NCBI GenBank assembly: GCA_020061465.1
Contig: JAGUYG010000009.1
Span: forward strand, 62,001 to 126,000
Reading direction: 5' to 3'
DNA: 64,000 nt
Source: Ignavibacteriales bacterium
Lineage (GTDB): Bacteria > Bacteroidota > Ignavibacteria > Ignavibacteriales > Ignavibacteriaceae
Under the pieces are notes generated by a model that did no database searches, was not told the origin of the DNA, and saw nothing but the letters and a program-made list of their open reading frames with translations. Below, in pieces: positions 50,474-58,113 of this stretch; the stretch's first letter is position 1, and the number at the start of each line of letters is the position of its first letter. The position numbers and the translations under genes were made by a program.

Positions 50474-52261
50474 TTAATGTTGATGCTCCATCGGCTGCTG
50501 CGGTTTATCGCTAACTTCTTTATAACTATCAATAGAGCTAATCCTCCTTGTTACTTCACCGCAGGTTAACATCATGTCACCAAAATATGGATTTAGTATT
50601 TTATCTGATTCACTTAACCAATATGCACCTTTGTCATCAAATGCCATCGGGCAGAACTGAACATAAACCATATCTATTGTTAATCCGAAAAGCTCTGCTG
50701 ATTCAATCAAAACATCAGACAATGTTTCGAAATGTTTCCTTTGCTCTTCAATGTCTTTTGCTTTCAAGATCATATCAATTGATTTTTTTAATTGCTTTTC
50801 TTTTTCCATCCACTCGTGGTGTGCTTTTTCATCTAAAAGATTCATATCAACCGATTGAACAGACTTCATTATTCTACCCGCACTATTTTTTGCGCTAGTA
50901 AAATTACTTTTAACCAAAGAATTTTTTAAATCGAAATAACGCCTGGTTAAATCTGTCAATTGTGATTTGAATTTTTCATGAACAGAAATCCGTTTGCTTA
51001 CCGGACGGTTCATCATACTATAATTACCACTTAACTGTGCTGCAGCATCTATTGCAAAAACACCGTTAGTAACAATTTCTTCACCCTCCTTCAATCCTTT
51101 TTCAACTATATAAAAATCTCCCGCACGCGGACCAAGAACGATATCACGCATTTCGAAAGCGGGAAATTCACTTCCCTGTACTTTTACGTAGACTACTGAT
51201 CGTGTACCTGTCCATAAAACAGATGTTTTAGAAATCAATAATGATTTACCCTTAAGTTCTGCCTGTGCAGAAAATTGTGCTTTTATTTTTCCCTTAACAA
51301 ACATTTCAGGTTTCAGTTGAAGTTCGGGATTATTAGCTTCGGCTCGCACAGATGCTGTGCGTGTCTGAGGATTTATAAGCGGATCAATAAAAGTTACAGT
51401 TGATGTAAATTCTTTCCCCGGTAAAGATGCAACAGTGAAATTTACTTTGCTGCCAATTTTCACCAATGCTAAATCTTGTTCATAAGCATCAAGCATAACC
51501 CAGATAGAAGATAAATCTACTATTTCAAAAAGAACGCTTCCCCTGTTAACATAATCGCCTGTGGAAACATTGCGCGTCATTACGATTCCTGAAATGTCTG
51601 CATAAACATCAAGTTCAGTCATTACTTCACCGTTGGATTCTATTGCCGCAATCTGCTTTTCGGTAATCTTCCACAAACGCAGCTTCTCTCTCACTGCATT
51701 ATAGAGCGATGGATTAACTTGCTTATTTTTTGCTGCTTCAATTAATTCTCTTTGTGCAGTTACCAATTCCGGTGAATAAATTGTTGCCATCTTCTCGCCT
51801 TTAGTAACTGCTTGACCAGTGAAATCAACAAAGAGTTTTTCAATTCTTCCGGAATAGTTTGCCGTTATAACTGCAAGCTTCTTTTCATTCGGTGCGATCT
51901 TACCGGTTAAATAAATTTCATATTCGGGAGTTAAATAACTTACTTTTGCAGTCTGAACATTTGCAAGAGCAATTGCTTCGGGGGACATAGTATAAATGAA
52001 AGGATTATCTGAATCAGTATCATTTCTCGAAGTCAATGGAATTAAATCCATTCCGCAAATAGGGCATTTACCGGGTTCCTTCTGCCTAATCTGGGGATGC
52101 ATTGAGCAAGTATAAATTGATGACTCAATGTGCTGATCATTTGATGTGCTGATGTGCCGATTGTTTGAAATACCAATTAATTGATTTATTATGAAATATA
52201 TCAATAAACCGGTTATTAGACCTGCAGCACCTGTCAAAATTTCTTTTTTTGAAAATTTCAT
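50474..52261 (-). CDS. cusB: CusB-like RND efflux membrane-fusion protein
   Basis: A 595-residue periplasmic adaptor. An N-terminal membrane anchor (LITGLLIYFIINQLIGI) precedes HMBD at ~50-80 (YTCSMHPQIRQKEPGKCPIC), then a barrel-sandwich hybrid, hairpin and beta-barrel (DVYADISGIVMTRNVSTGDYV; WVMLDAYEQDLALVKIG). The C-terminal ~170 residues form a DUF3347-like four-helix domain with metal-type residues near VQFCPMAF. It links CusA to the TolC-like channel. Its N-terminal linker is encoded by a low-complexity repeat. Its start overlaps the four-helix gene stop by 4 bp. Confidence 0.88.
   Translation of the reverse strand: MKFSKKEILTGAAGLITGLLIYFIINQLIGISNNRHISTSNDQHIESSIYTCSMHPQIRQKEPGKCPICGMDLIPLTSRNDTDSDNPFIYTMSPEAIALANVQTAKVSYLTPEYEIYLTGKIAPNEKKLAVITANYSGRIEKLFVDFTGQAVTKGEKMATIYSPELVTAQRELIEAAKNKQVNPSLYNAVREKLRLWKITEKQIAAIESNGEVMTELDVYADISGIVMTRNVSTGDYVNRGSVLFEIVDLSSIWVMLDAYEQDLALVKIGSKVNFTVASLPGKEFTSTVTFIDPLINPQTRTASVRAEANNPELQLKPEMFVKGKIKAQFSAQAELKGKSLLISKTSVLWTGTRSVVYVKVQGSEFPAFEMRDIVLGPRAGDFYIVEKGLKEGEEIVTNGVFAIDAAAQLSGNYSMMNRPVSKRISVHEKFKSQLTDLTRRYFDLKNSLVKSNFTSAKNSAGRIMKSVQSVDMNLLDEKAHHEWMEKEKQLKKSIDMILKAKDIEEQRKHFETLSDVLIESAELFGLTIDMVYVQFCPMAFDDKGAYWLSESDKILNPYFGDMMLTCGEVTRRISSIDSYKEVSDKPQQPMEHQH
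52124..52151 (-). repeat. ATCAGCACATCA-type repeat, inverted copy in cusB
   Basis: Read on the minus strand, this is CAGCACATCAAATGATCAGC followed by ACATTGAG. It matches the element at 52643-52670 at about 24 of 28 positions but in opposite orientation. Here it lies within the cusB linker codons. Confidence 0.6.
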
Positions 52262-52611
52262 TTTAAAGACCTTTTAGTAGTGTAAATAATTCTTGTTAAA
52301 AGTTTTTGAATGACTAGAAGCTTGTCAATTAATTCTTTTGGCTCTGGATAATGTTTGCTTCGCTTACAAAGCAAGAGCCAATATTCTGTTTCTTCTGCTT
52401 CCTTTGCTGCGATTTTTAATTTATGGATAAAATCTAATTTACTTTCCGCGCTCTGGGCTTCACGGATATTAGCACCAATTGAAACACCGGATTTTAACAA
52501 CTGACGTGATATTACAAATTTCTTATCGCTTTCAAGCATTTCGCTGAAATCAATTATATCGAGAGCAAATTCAAAACTCAACTCAAGTATTTCATTTCTT
52601 CTTTCTTTCAT
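52258..52611 (-). CDS. Four-helix-bundle protein (23S rRNA IVS type)
   Basis: A 117-residue all-helical protein of the family once found in 23S rRNA intervening sequences (TIGR02436 type). The signature is LLKSGVSIGANIREAQSAES followed by KLDFIHKLKIAAKEAEETEYWLLL. Known relatives include DGR accessory proteins (Avd). It has no evident link to metal efflux, yet it sits inside the cus gene set between the TolC-like gene and cusB, flanked by inverted short repeats (52124 and 52643). Its stop overlaps cusB by 4 bp. Confidence 0.85.
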   Translation of the reverse strand: MKERRNEILELSFEFALDIIDFSEMLESDKKFVISRQLLKSGVSIGANIREAQSAESKLDFIHKLKIAAKEAEETEYWLLLCKRSKHYPEPKELIDKLLVIQKLLTRIIYTTKRSLK

Positions 52612-52642
52612 TTTATACCTCTTAACAAATTTAAAATTTCAT

Positions 52643-52670
52643 CAGCACATCAAACAATCAGCACATTAGC
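52643..52670 (+). repeat. ATCAGCACATCA-type repeat, copy upstream of four-helix gene
   Basis: CAGCACATCAAACAATCAGC followed by ACATTAGC, in the 67-bp gap between the TolC-like and four-helix genes. It is the inverted partner of 52124-52151. Similar CAGCACATTAGC words are a familiar intergenic low-complexity repeat in Bacteroidota genomes. Confidence 0.6.
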
Positions 52671-52678
52671 AAATCAGT

Positions 52679-54286
52679 TTATCGTCCCATCAACCTTTCA
52701 ATCATAGCTGCTGCTATATTCTGATCCACAACCGCAGCAAGACTTCTCAATCTGTAGTCAAGTAACTGCTGCTGCATTCTTAACACTTCTTCAAAGTTAC
52801 TTCCGGCGGTAGTGTATTGAATGGTGAGAATGTTCAAAGCCTGTTGAGCCAATTGAGTCTGCTGCTCATATAATTCAATTCGTCTTTCAGCATCTTTAAA
52901 GTCCTTAAGTGCTTCTTCATAACTTACAAGTAATTGATTTTCTGTTTCTTCCTTTCTTTTACCTGTAGAATGACGTAAAAATTCCGCTTCCTTTACAGAT
53001 GCATCGTATTTACTTCGCCAAATAGGAAGACTGATCGTTACCATCGGCATAATCATATTTTTTGCAGTCATCATACTTTCAGGTCTTTGTTGAAATATTG
53101 AATATTGCAGCCCAAGACCAATCATCGGGAATCCCATTTTTTTGTTCATTCTTTCATGAGCTAAATGAGACTCTTCTTCTCTTTGAAGCATTTGCAGCAT
53201 CGGATTGTTTAACCGGATACTGTCAGGTATTTCAAAAATTGATGCCGGTAGAGATGATGCAGAAATAGCATCGGGTATGTTTACATATTCATCCGCTGAT
53301 CTGTTCAGCAATTTATTAAACTGAACGAGTAATGGCTGCTTACTATCATAAAGTAAAGCTAGCTTATTTTTTAATTCATTTATTTCTAATTGTACGCGAA
53401 GTACATTAACCATATTACCGTCGCTGCTCATCGAGTTCATACCGCTCATATCTTGCGCTTGAGTAGTTGAGCCAGGAGTAGTTTGATTTTGCATATTCAT
53501 TCCACTCATACCAGAAGTGCTAGATGTTCCGGATGATTTATCCTTTCCCGAAGGCATTTCCGAAGGATCCCGAATACTTTCGGGACGGGATCGTTCCGAT
53601 TGCATTCCACCGCTGGAAGAACCGCTTGATCCGCCTGTCGATCCGCTTTTAAGACGGGTGATTGCAATTTCTTCGAGTGTTTTAAGGATTTCTATATTTT
53701 CTTCAGCAATAGATATTTCTTTTCGAAGAAGGTGAAGTGAATACCAGATTGCTTTCACTTCATAGAACAACATAGTCTTGGCTTCATTAAATTCTTCATA
53801 CCTTGCTTTAGCCATTGCAACTGCTTCATCCTCTGCTGCACTAAGTGTTCCGAACCATGGAAACATCTGCATTAGAGAAATATCAGCAATTTGATTACCC
53901 ATATATCTTTCCATCGGTTCAATAAAAATTCCGAATGAAAGCTGGGGATCCGGCAGAGCTCCAACCTGCGGCACTTTTTCTAATGATGCCTGGTATGAAA
54001 AAAATTTTGCTTTCAAGCCCGGATTGTTTTCAGCAGCTATCTTTAAATATTCATCAAGAGATTGTGCATTGGACGGGAAAATTATAAAAATGGTACAGAG
54101 GATGAAGAGTAGTGTTTTACCCACCCCTCGCCCCTCCAAGGATGGAACAATACTCTTTTTAAAACGGAGAAGTATCCCCTCCAGGGAGGGGATGAAGGGG
54201 TGGGTATAGTTGTTTGAGAATATTATACTATGATACATATATGATTTAACACTATTCAAACTTTTATTGAAATTTTTTCTTCTCAT
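52679..54286 (-). CDS. cusC: TolC-family outer-membrane channel (CusC-like)
   Basis: An outer-membrane efflux protein for the CusCBA pump. The body has two OEP repeats: SLDEYLKIAAENNPGLKAKF near the start, ADPQLSFGIFIEPMERY-like sequence, and a late YTTAGSNFEEVLRMQQQLLD. A Ser/Gly/Met-rich loop lies at ~225-285 (GMSGMNMQNQ, MSGMNSMSSDG), a likely metal-contact site. ATG 54286 overlaps the cusA stop (ATGA). A palindromic repeat encodes residues ~28-56, before the hydrophobic signal (KTLLFILCTIFIIFPSNAQ). GTG 54124 with GGAGG inside the repeat could be the working start (481 residues). Confidence 0.85.
   Translation of the reverse strand: MRRKNFNKSLNSVKSYMYHSIIFSNNYTHPFIPSLEGILLRFKKSIVPSLEGRGVGKTLLFILCTIFIIFPSNAQSLDEYLKIAAENNPGLKAKFFSYQASLEKVPQVGALPDPQLSFGIFIEPMERYMGNQIADISLMQMFPWFGTLSAAEDEAVAMAKARYEEFNEAKTMLFYEVKAIWYSLHLLRKEISIAEENIEILKTLEEIAITRLKSGSTGGSSGSSSGGMQSERSRPESIRDPSEMPSGKDKSSGTSSTSGMSGMNMQNQTTPGSTTQAQDMSGMNSMSSDGNMVNVLRVQLEINELKNKLALLYDSKQPLLVQFNKLLNRSADEYVNIPDAISASSLPASIFEIPDSIRLNNPMLQMLQREEESHLAHERMNKKMGFPMIGLGLQYSIFQQRPESMMTAKNMIMPMVTISLPIWRSKYDASVKEAEFLRHSTGKRKEETENQLLVSYEEALKDFKDAERRIELYEQQTQLAQQALNILTIQYTTAGSNFEEVLRMQQQLLDYRLRSLAAVVDQNIAAAMIERLMGR
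54118..54206. repeat. 89-bp palindromic element within the TolC-like gene
   Basis: The outer arms are TACCCACCCCT (54118-54128) and AGGGGTGGGTA (54196-54206), perfect inverts, and the inner arms are CCCCTCC (54131-54137) and GGAGGGG (54185-54191). It is far more GC-rich than its surroundings. It is read through in frame and adds residues of the type PSLEG twice to the protein's N-terminus. This looks like a small REP/MITE-like insertion. Confidence 0.8.
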
Positions 54287-57200
54287 TGTTGACTCTTCTT
54301 TATTAAATACTCTTCTCTTGCAGAATAAAGCACAGGTACAACGAACAATGTAATCAATACTATAGTCATTCCGCCGAAAGCAGGAATAGCCATTGGTATC
54401 ATAATATCAGCGCCTCTTCCTTGTGATGTTAAAACCGGTAAAAGAGCAAGCAAGGTTGTTGCAACAGTCATAAGGCAAGGGCGTACCCTTTTCTTTCCAG
54501 CTTCTACTACAGCCTTGCGAACTTCTTCGCGGCTTTCAGGTTGATATCTTTTGAAACTTTGCTTAAGGTAGGTTGCAATTACTACTCCGTCATCAGTGGC
54601 AATACCGAATAAAGCAATAAATCCTACCCAAACAGCAACACTAAGATTGAACGTTCGCATCTGAAATAATTCGCGCATGTTTATCCCAAAAACTGAAAAA
54701 TCCATAAACCAATTTTGACTATACAACCATAGCATTATAAATCCGCCTGCAAATGCTAGTGCAATGGCAGATAAAATAAATAATGAAGTACTTACTGATC
54801 TAAACTGAAAATAAAGGATAAGAAAAATAACAGCCAAGACTATAGGAATGATGATAGAAAGGCGTTTCTCTGCTCTTATCTGGTTTTCATAGCTTCCTGA
54901 AAATTTATAGCTAACACCTGCCGGAACTATCAATTCGCCGGATGAAATTTTTTCTTCAAGAAAACGCTGCGCATCTTCAACTACTGTTACTTCAGCATAT
55001 CCTTCTTTTTTATCTAAAAGAACATAGCCTACCAAAAAAGTATTTTCTCCGCGAATCATGGCTGGTCCCTGCCTAAAATTAATTTCTGCAATTTCGCCAA
55101 GTGGAATTTGTTGCCCGGTCGGAGTTGGAATAAAAATACGTTTCATCATTTCGGGATCATCACGCCATTCACGTGCGTATCGAGCACGAATATTAAAACG
55201 TTCACGTCCTTCAACCGTAGTGGTTAATGGCATACCACCAATTGCAGTTTCGATATACATTTGAACTTCGGCAATGTTCAAACCGTAGCGAGACATTGCA
55301 TTTCGGTCAAGATCAATTTCAAGATAAGGTTTCCCTAAACTGCGATCGGCAAAGACTGCTTCTGCTTTTACTGAGGGAACTTCTTTTAATAGTTGTTCTA
55401 ACTTCAAGCTGAATTCTTCAATAACTTTTAAATTAGGACCGAATACTTTTATACCCATCGGTGCACGCATTCCTGTTTGAAGCATTACAAGCCGGGTTTC
55501 AATCGGTTGAAGTTTTGGAGCCGAAGTAACACCGGGAATGTTGTTGGTTGCTTTTACAATTTCATTCCAGATATCCTGAGGAGAATTGATATGATCTCTC
55601 CATTGCCTGAAATACTTTCCGTTATTATCAGGAATAAGATTTCCGTTTTCATCTATTACAAATTCTCCATTGCCATCAGTTTTAAAACGTACTGGATAAC
55701 CATTTTCATCAGTTATATACTCTGTTTTATAAAGAATAATATTTTCGAACATTGAAACAGGAGCGGGATCAAGCGCGCTTTCAATCCTGCCTGCTTTACC
55801 CACAACGGTATGCACTTCAGGTATTGCCTGCACGCGCATATCAAGCTGCTGAACGTATTTGAGATTAGCTTCAACACCGGAATGGGGCATTGAAGTCGGC
55901 ATCAACAGAAATGAACCTTCATCCAACGAAGGCATAAATTCCTTACCCATTCCGGGAAATGTATGTGCAAGTCCGCTCCATACAAAATTAGTTCTGATGT
56001 TTAATCCTACGGCATCAAATGTTTTTGGGATAAAACCAAAAACTTTATCAAAACCTAACCAGATATTTATTCCTAATAAAATAATTACAACCGGTATGGC
56101 AAGAAATGTTTTTTTGTTATCGAGGCACCAGTGAAGTATTTGAGGATAAAGCTTTATGAACACTTTGAATACACCGAGCACTAAAGCGATGATAAAAAGT
56201 ATAAAAATAAAATTGAGAAGTAAACTATTCTGAACACCGAGCGGAAGCCATTCGGCAGCAAGCAGCCATGATACTGCTGCGGTAATAATCCCGATTGTTA
56301 TTTTGTCATGATGCTTTGCTGCTAACGATAAAAATGATACGAGTCTTTTGTCTCTCAAATTTCTAAGAAAAGTTAGCCCGGGTCCCTTTTGATAATTGAT
56401 TGAATGATGAATCAAATTATTTGTTGCGAGTAAAATCAAGACTAAGCCTACCCATAGCAGCCACCATATAGAAATCAAACCGATTATCAATAAAAAAACA
56501 TTAAGATAGAACCGAAAATTTTCTTTTTTTGTTTTGATTGAAAAAAGCCAATGTGCAAAGGCAGGCATCAAAAGTAGTGTTATTATTACCGATGCAATTA
56601 ATGCAAACGTTTTGGTATAAGCCAATGGACCAAAAAGTTTTCCTTCTGCTTCTTGTAAAGTAAATACTGGCAAGAAACTAACAATGGTTGTTGAAACGGC
56701 AGTAAGTATAGCCGTTGCTACCTCACTTGAAGCATTATAGACCGTAGTTATTATAGATTGTCCAGCAGGCGCTTCATCTTTATGACGGAGAATATTTTCA
56801 TTTAGAATTATTCCTAAATCAACCATAGTCCCTATTGCTATTGCAATGCCTGAAAGAGCGACAATGTTAGCATCCACATTAAAATATTTCATCATAATGA
56901 AGCTCATCAGAACAGCAATAGGAAGTAATGCAGAAATAATTAGTGAAGCACGCAAATGCATTACCATAACTATAATAACTATTATAGTAATCAGTATCTG
57001 CAAACTAATTGCTTCATACAAAGTGCCCAATGTTTCATAAATCAATTGTGTGCGATCGTAAAAGGGAACTATAGTTACTTTTGAAACTCTACCATCGGCA
57101 AGTTTTTTTGATGGAAGACCGGGAGAAATTTCTTTGATCTTTTCTTTTACTTCCTGAATAACTTTGAGCGGATTATCGCCATAGCGAGCAACAACAACTC

Positions 57201-58113
57201 CACCGACAGCTTCAACACCGCCTTTGTCTAAGAATCCGCTGTGTCCCCGCGGTGCCGGTCCAAAATTCACTCTTGCAATATCGCGGATGCGAATAGGAAT
57301 GTTGTTTGTTACTTTAACTACCGCCTGTTCAATATCATTGAGCGATTTTACATAACCCAAACCGCGTACATAATATTCTGCAAGGTTCAGTTCTACTGTA
57401 TTGGCTCCAACATCAAGATTGCTTTGGCGAATTGCTTCCATAACCTGCATCATGCTTACGTTGTGTGCTTTCATTGCAACAGGATCTAGATCAACCTGGT
57501 ATTCCTTTACAAAGCCTCCGATTGAAGCTACTTCTGAAACACCTTCCGATGCTGTTAATGCATAACGAACATAAAAATCCTGGACTGTTCTTAACTCGTG
57601 CGGATCCCAGCCTCCTGCCGGATTTCCTTTCTCATCACGACCTTCAAGTGTGTACCAAAAAATTTGTCCTAATGCAGTAGCATCAGGACCGAGTGTAGGT
57701 GAAACACCGTCAGGAAGTAAATCGGGTGAAAGTGAGTTTAGTTTTTCAAGTACACGGGTTCTGCTCCAGTAGTATTCAACGCTTTCACCAAAGATGATGT
57801 AGATGCTGGAGAAGCCGAACATCGAAGTGCTTCTAATGCTTTTTACACCAGGCAATCCGAGTAGTGAAGTAGTAAGAGGATAAGTTATTTGGTCTTCCAC
57901 ATCCTGCGGACTTCGTCCCATCCATTCGGTAAAAACTATTTGTTGATTTTCACCAATGTCAGGAATTGCATCAACCGGCACAGGATCGCGCGGAAGGAAA
58001 TCAATGTTCCAATTGAATGGAGCTGTTGCGATGCCCCAGCCGACAAAAAGCAGCAGCAAGAGCATCGTAACAAGCTTGTTCTCAAGAAAGTATTTTATGA
58101 TTGAGTTTAGCAT
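54283..58113 (-). CDS. cusA: CusA-like heavy-metal RND efflux pump
   Basis: A 1276-residue inner-membrane RND transporter, about 230 residues longer than E. coli CusA. The N-terminus has TM1 and IPDIGENQQIVFTEWMGRSP. TM4 carries the proton-relay region with D432 and E439 (AIGTMVDLGIILNENILRH). Extra hydrophobic segments lie between the usual TM6 and TM7 (about 537-563, 604-622 and 629-649). It exports Cu(I)/Ag(I) or similar metals with CusB and the TolC-like channel. The stop overlaps the channel gene start. Confidence 0.92.
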   Translation of the reverse strand: MLNSIIKYFLENKLVTMLLLLLFVGWGIATAPFNWNIDFLPRDPVPVDAIPDIGENQQIVFTEWMGRSPQDVEDQITYPLTTSLLGLPGVKSIRSTSMFGFSSIYIIFGESVEYYWSRTRVLEKLNSLSPDLLPDGVSPTLGPDATALGQIFWYTLEGRDEKGNPAGGWDPHELRTVQDFYVRYALTASEGVSEVASIGGFVKEYQVDLDPVAMKAHNVSMMQVMEAIRQSNLDVGANTVELNLAEYYVRGLGYVKSLNDIEQAVVKVTNNIPIRIRDIARVNFGPAPRGHSGFLDKGGVEAVGGVVVARYGDNPLKVIQEVKEKIKEISPGLPSKKLADGRVSKVTIVPFYDRTQLIYETLGTLYEAISLQILITIIVIIVMVMHLRASLIISALLPIAVLMSFIMMKYFNVDANIVALSGIAIAIGTMVDLGIILNENILRHKDEAPAGQSIITTVYNASSEVATAILTAVSTTIVSFLPVFTLQEAEGKLFGPLAYTKTFALIASVIITLLLMPAFAHWLFSIKTKKENFRFYLNVFLLIIGLISIWWLLWVGLVLILLATNNLIHHSINYQKGPGLTFLRNLRDKRLVSFLSLAAKHHDKITIGIITAAVSWLLAAEWLPLGVQNSLLLNFIFILFIIALVLGVFKVFIKLYPQILHWCLDNKKTFLAIPVVIILLGINIWLGFDKVFGFIPKTFDAVGLNIRTNFVWSGLAHTFPGMGKEFMPSLDEGSFLLMPTSMPHSGVEANLKYVQQLDMRVQAIPEVHTVVGKAGRIESALDPAPVSMFENIILYKTEYITDENGYPVRFKTDGNGEFVIDENGNLIPDNNGKYFRQWRDHINSPQDIWNEIVKATNNIPGVTSAPKLQPIETRLVMLQTGMRAPMGIKVFGPNLKVIEEFSLKLEQLLKEVPSVKAEAVFADRSLGKPYLEIDLDRNAMSRYGLNIAEVQMYIETAIGGMPLTTTVEGRERFNIRARYAREWRDDPEMMKRIFIPTPTGQQIPLGEIAEINFRQGPAMIRGENTFLVGYVLLDKKEGYAEVTVVEDAQRFLEEKISSGELIVPAGVSYKFSGSYENQIRAEKRLSIIIPIVLAVIFLILYFQFRSVSTSLFILSAIALAFAGGFIMLWLYSQNWFMDFSVFGINMRELFQMRTFNLSVAVWVGFIALFGIATDDGVVIATYLKQSFKRYQPESREEVRKAVVEAGKKRVRPCLMTVATTLLALLPVLTSQGRGADIMIPMAIPAFGGMTIVLITLFVVPVLYSAREEYLIKKSQQ

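Follow-up and report, generated by a model that had tools for sequence, protein, structure and literature searches.

A dispersed palindromic repeat, in frame, separates the signal peptide of a CusC/TolC-like channel from its cusA-coupled start codon in an Ignavibacteriales genome

Here, we describe an 89-bp palindromic element at positions 54118-54206 (minus strand) of a 64-kb stretch of Ignavibacteriales DNA, referred to below as the window. The element is a copy of a repeat family dispersed through its own genome, and it stands in a slot of a CusC/TolC-like outer membrane channel gene where relatives have repeatedly acquired unrelated repeats. We consider it quite probable that a repeat copy was inserted into a tolerant slot and is translated mainly from the start codon coupled to the upstream pump gene. 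On this account, a small REP/RPE-like repeat would have entered upstream of the channel signal peptide, behind the start codon coupled to cusA, at a place that tolerates foreign codons and where the insert may be close to neutral. Most ribosomes would initiate at the coupled ATG and read on through the element, melting its hairpin, and the product would be a precursor with an n-region of about 57 residues, presumably removed along with the signal peptide.

The channel ORF (52679..54286, minus strand, 535 aa; PF02321 OEP, E 3.8e-38) has the RND pump gene cusA directly upstream (54283..58113, minus strand; PF00873, E 7.2e-171), and its coupled ATG (54284..54286, minus strand) overlaps the cusA stop codon as ATGA. 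Possible start codons in this frame before the signal peptide are ATG 54286, TTG 54259, ATG 54238, TTG 54139 and GTG 54124. A preliminary description of this DNA had placed the palindrome in frame between the coupled ATG and the hydrophobic signal segment, with about 30 residues added, and the reading frame from 54286 to 52679 bears this out: the element forms residues ~27-57 of the ORF and adds about 30 codons (THPFIPSLEGILLRFKKSIVPSLEGRGVG) ahead of TLLFILCTIFIIFPSNA-Q. The core and end of the signal peptide (TLLFILCTIFIIFPSNA, 54065..54115, minus strand) were placed by translation and hydropathy, with a presumed cleavage site. Roughly 24 codons between the coupled ATG and the element (54207..54283, minus strand) are likewise missing from short orthologues, and a genome search for a second copy of them gave nothing convincing, with only short matches of 18-26 nt (best E 0.03). 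Elsewhere in the channel ORF (52679-54286), residues ~214-290 form a Ser/Gly/Met-rich insert (MSGMNMQNQ...), a candidate metal-binding loop that orthologues L010 and L011 have in shorter form. The cus operon also contains a gene for a 23S rRNA-intervening-sequence protein (PF05635; 52258-52611, minus strand), which lies between the channel gene and cusB and overlaps the start of cusB.

The palindrome is real, and the position first given for it is exact. Read on the minus strand, it begins with TACCCACCCC and ends with GGGGTGGGTA; its outer arms share an exact 11-nt match (TACCCACCCCT) and, beyond unequal bases, a further one of 7 nt (CCCCTCC). Its RNA fold reaches -53.6 kcal/mol (z -4.4), a value equalled by none of 200 shuffles, and it forms the lowest-energy 131-nt window on both strands of the 64 kb (1278 sliding windows per strand). 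A default inverted-repeat finder reported no match for it, owing to an indel that makes the arms unequal. One terminus is a dispersed half-element carrying the repeat unit GGAGGGGCGAGGGGTGGGTA (54118..54137, minus strand), which includes a Shine-Dalgarno-like GGAGG within the stem (54133..54137, minus strand); the other half holds an inner hairpin, CCCCTCCCTGGAGGGG (54176..54191, minus strand), with a pattern match at C15:116176-116190. Each terminus bears a TA, with no clear target-site duplication and no empty site for comparison, and a search of positions 52000-56000 against Rfam gave no matches at E up to 1. Four of the six reading frames of the element are open, so the open frame of a single copy is weak evidence alone.

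Copies of the terminal unit are dispersed through the 4.2-Mb genome. The unit GAGGGGCGAGGGGTGNGT has 31 sites at up to 3 mismatches, compared with 5 for a reversed-pattern control. A stricter 24-letter pattern (up to 2 mismatches) finds 23 sites in the same genome and matches 10 of the 59 genomes searched, its own included, with one control match overall. Reading of 30 loci revealed that copies are half-units or facing pairs of half-units with variable sequence between them; the copy at 54118-54206 is such a pair. No parent transposon was found for the element. A REP-associated transposase was considered as mobiliser and rejected, since none of the genome's 10 Y1 transposase loci (PF01797), some of them cut by contig ends, carries the unit or its hairpin within flanks of about 1.5 kb.

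For the same slot in relatives, we compared 80 loci encoding homologues (of 465 confirmed relatives) and an additional orthologue, G054. The cusA stop was placed by tblastn, and the start of the hydrophobic core and the gap length by a simple hydropathy rule; L047, which has no cusA match, and loci with gaps above 300 nt were omitted from the gap counts. In most homologues, 1-30 nt separate the cusA stop from the hydrophobic core. For example, L043 and L045 lack the element and start 3 and 7 codons ahead of the core with a normal short signal peptide. Its residues are absent from all 80 homologue loci and from L011, so that no orthologue among them carries the same residues without a palindrome. 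No near-identical empty site was found, and identity to the closest orthologues is about 60%.

Other relatives carry palindromes of their own in this slot. The G054 orthologue has a 146-nt gap holding a palindrome (fold z -3.9) of a different family, dispersed in its genus and unrelated to the window's element; palindromes of this type have 7 matches in G054 (own copy counted), 9 in G041, and none in the window's genome or in G401. In L068 (Prolixibacteraceae), a 202-nt gap contains several strong palindromes (z -10.9) with the channel frame fully open. The slot of L104 folds at z -3.5, and that of L115 has strong palindromes (z -6.0) but in-frame stops. An insert common to L049 and L044 was considered as a dispersed repeat and rejected, with one match per genome. 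The palindrome families at the cusA/channel junction of relatives are mutually unrelated and without conserved structure.

The channel frame is preserved across homologues with long gaps. Fifteen loci, the window included, have a gap of 96-300 nt, and in 11 of them no stop interrupts the frame between the end of cusA and the hydrophobic core, compared with 0.96 expected (P about 1e-12). The expected values were obtained by dinucleotide shuffling of the individual gaps, and the homologues are only partly independent. The other two frames of these gaps are open in 2 of 30 cases. Leaving out the window gives 10 of 14 open (0.95 expected). When L049 and L118, which probably go back to the same events as L044 and L107, are dropped as well, 8 of 12 remain open (0.82 expected, P about 1e-8); lowering the gap threshold to 45 nt gives 14 of 21 (2.43 expected). 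Stops within the gap occur in four of the 15 homologues (L042, L057, L065 and L115), so the slot is merely intergenic in some relatives and the open frame is not universal. The last canonical start before the core lies 41 codons upstream of it in G054, 18 in L044, 24 in L049, 25 in L068, 22 in L104 and 16 in L120. As the last in-frame ATG, GTG or TTG thus stands 16-41 codons before the core in six of the 11 open cases, some of the extension has to be translated there, given canonical starts. A frame open from the cusA stop in 11 of 15 homologues is what would be expected if the coupled ATG is in use and inserts are filtered for frame, unlike the outcome of a takeover by a downstream start. Most likely, then, translation would start at the coupled ATG and run through the insert.

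The same palindromes also occur inside other proteins, in particular in type IX sorting domains (Por_Secre_tail), where the unit is read in a frame other than that of the channel: VPSLEGRGVG in the channel and SPLLRGARGV in the sorting domains are two frames of one DNA unit. Five aligned sorting-domain proteins carry it at one place, between ...KIKFSIP and VTLKVYDVLG. The genome has 149 TIGR04183 matches, of which 110 retain both anchors used for counting the spacing; among the 39 dropped, 17 lack the first motif and 22 the second, and at least three visibly have inserts (L302, L334, L343). The spacing is exactly 23 residues in 88 of the 110 domains and longer in 22. By reading, seven of the longer ones hold the GGGG unit (degenerate in L317), ten hold GTAGAGACGGGGCATGCCCCGTCTCTAC or a variant of it, and five hold other sequence. 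For one loop to hold two unrelated families, at least two insertions are needed. Genome-wide, 6 of the 31 sites of the GGGG unit and 8 of the 32 places of the second family, a GTAG palindrome, overlap sorting-domain matches or lie at their edge, counts inflated by paralogous domain duplication; by estimate, the loops make up about 0.1% of the genome (149 x about 30 bp). The half-units in sorting domains have no folding advantage over shuffled sequence (z -1.4 to +0.7), so the evidence there is sequence identity, not structure.

In relatives, the unit stands in frame in the DNA methylases L210 and L212 (PF01555 for L210; N6_N4_Mtase), in an HsdM-type methylase (L220, PF02384) and in a G028 sorting domain (L227). 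An MmeI-like protein (L351) contains a GTAG-type palindrome. Several of these in-frame palindromes (L220, L210, L212, L351) thus fall in DNA methyltransferases of restriction systems, one of them shortly after the FDPCCGSGG stretch of the HsdM-type protein. A literature search by title and abstract opening, mostly outside subscription journals, found no report on palindromes in type IX sorting domains or at CusC/TolC N-termini.

The rival that bears most directly on how the insert is read holds that the element itself restores a start: the channel would be made mainly from GTG 54124 with a normal signal peptide of about 20 residues, leaving the upstream codons as a leader. The preliminary description had raised this, and the motif it pointed to is present, namely an in-frame, palindrome-borne GTG (54122..54124, minus strand) three codons before the hydrophobic core, with GGAGG at 54137-54133, 8 nt upstream. 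The resulting N-terminus, MGK + TLLFILCTIFIIF + PSNA-Q, resembles a normal signal peptide, and the genome does use Shine-Dalgarno sites: of the 36 first ATGs in the window, 13 have such a core ahead of them, versus 1.3 in control windows. The coupled ATG has a weak one only. Against a restart, the GTG and its GGAGG are both paired in the predicted stem, with a mean unpaired probability of 0.21 for the GTG region versus 0.56 for the coupled ATG, and no stop would end coupled ribosomes before they reach the GTG. Moreover, homologues keep long open extensions, and in six of the 11 the nearest upstream start is more than 15 codons away from the core. We thus regard a main start at the GTG as rather unlikely. 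What stands from the original proposal is that the element was inserted and is read in frame; a rewiring of translation to the GTG is less supported, given the pairing of its site and the open frames of the homologues.

The hairpin might instead be kept for regulation, lowering channel output relative to the pump or protecting or processing the cus mRNA, with coding incidental, and such a role would be compatible with insertion and translation from the coupled ATG. A very stable structure at the cusA/cusC junction and the recurrence of palindromes there in relatives, including the non-coding one of L115, would fit it, but most homologues are too short at this place to hold a hairpin, the families share neither ancestry nor structure, and the coding strand has no T-run for a terminator after the hairpin; we deem this improbable. 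The notion that the element is native coding sequence, palindromic by chance or codon bias, can appeal to the open frame, but further copies in the genome contradict it, and the element's rank as the lowest-energy window and the absence of its residues from every orthologue compared make it hardly credible. The preferred reading remains an inserted repeat translated mainly from the coupled ATG.

Among known repeat systems, the closest likeness is to the RPEs, described in PMC2229807 and PMC10969869 as in-frame palindromes within Rickettsia genes and as protein-coding palindromes (Ogata et al. 2000). As in those descriptions, small dispersed palindromes occur here both between genes and in frame in unrelated ORFs, some at N-termini: the genome holds a dispersed palindromic family (31 unit sites, 23 under the stricter pattern; z -4.4), with in-frame copies in the channel, in sorting domains and in methylases of relatives. 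The Rickettsia RPEs differ in having one conserved peptide and reading frame, whereas the unit here is read in different frames; furthermore, insertions here recur at defined protein positions, the pre-signal slot and the sorting-domain loop. The element thus works like RPEs but is at most a candidate member of them, since the encoded peptide differs between copies. GTAG/CGTC-tagged REPs, as portrayed in PMC3733652, are likewise dispersed palindromes, some intragenic and many at ORF N-termini, and the second family of this genome has GTAG...CTAC ends. The window's element (TACCCACCCC...GGGGTGGGTA) differs in bearing neither a GTAG nor a CGTC tag, and no cognate tyrosine transposase flanked by the repeat appears among the 10 PF01797 loci. 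This also sets it apart from the Bacteroidetes TnpA-REP genes, which are flanked by atypical hairpins according to PMC6006769. With MITEs, the element shares small size, TA at both termini, the lack of a gene of its own and terminal inverted repeats (the 11-nt exact arms plus the 7-nt inner match); neither a parent transposon nor a clear target-site duplication was found for it.

PMC3733652 reports that N-terminal RPE-1 copies are expressed and that many intragenic REPs, often N-terminal, may be untranslated owing to downstream starts; for most N-terminal palindromes, the choice between translation and a mis-annotated start is undecided, as stated there for REPs. Whether independent insertions leave the frame open behind a translationally coupled start offers a direct test of this choice, and here the outcome argues for translation. 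The findings suggest that coding palindromes, best described in Rickettsia, occur in Ignavibacteria-type genomes too. It is conceivable, although we hold this tentatively and with some doubt, that the pre-signal slot of CusC-like channels in Ignavibacteria and Bacteroidota and one type IX sorting-domain loop are true landing sites, at which unrelated palindrome families insert repeatedly in frame and are kept as expressed spacers. Preferred protein positions of coding palindromes could serve as natural permissive sites, and, if such landing sites exist, short selfish palindromes would quite generally supply exported proteins with in-frame peptide inserts.
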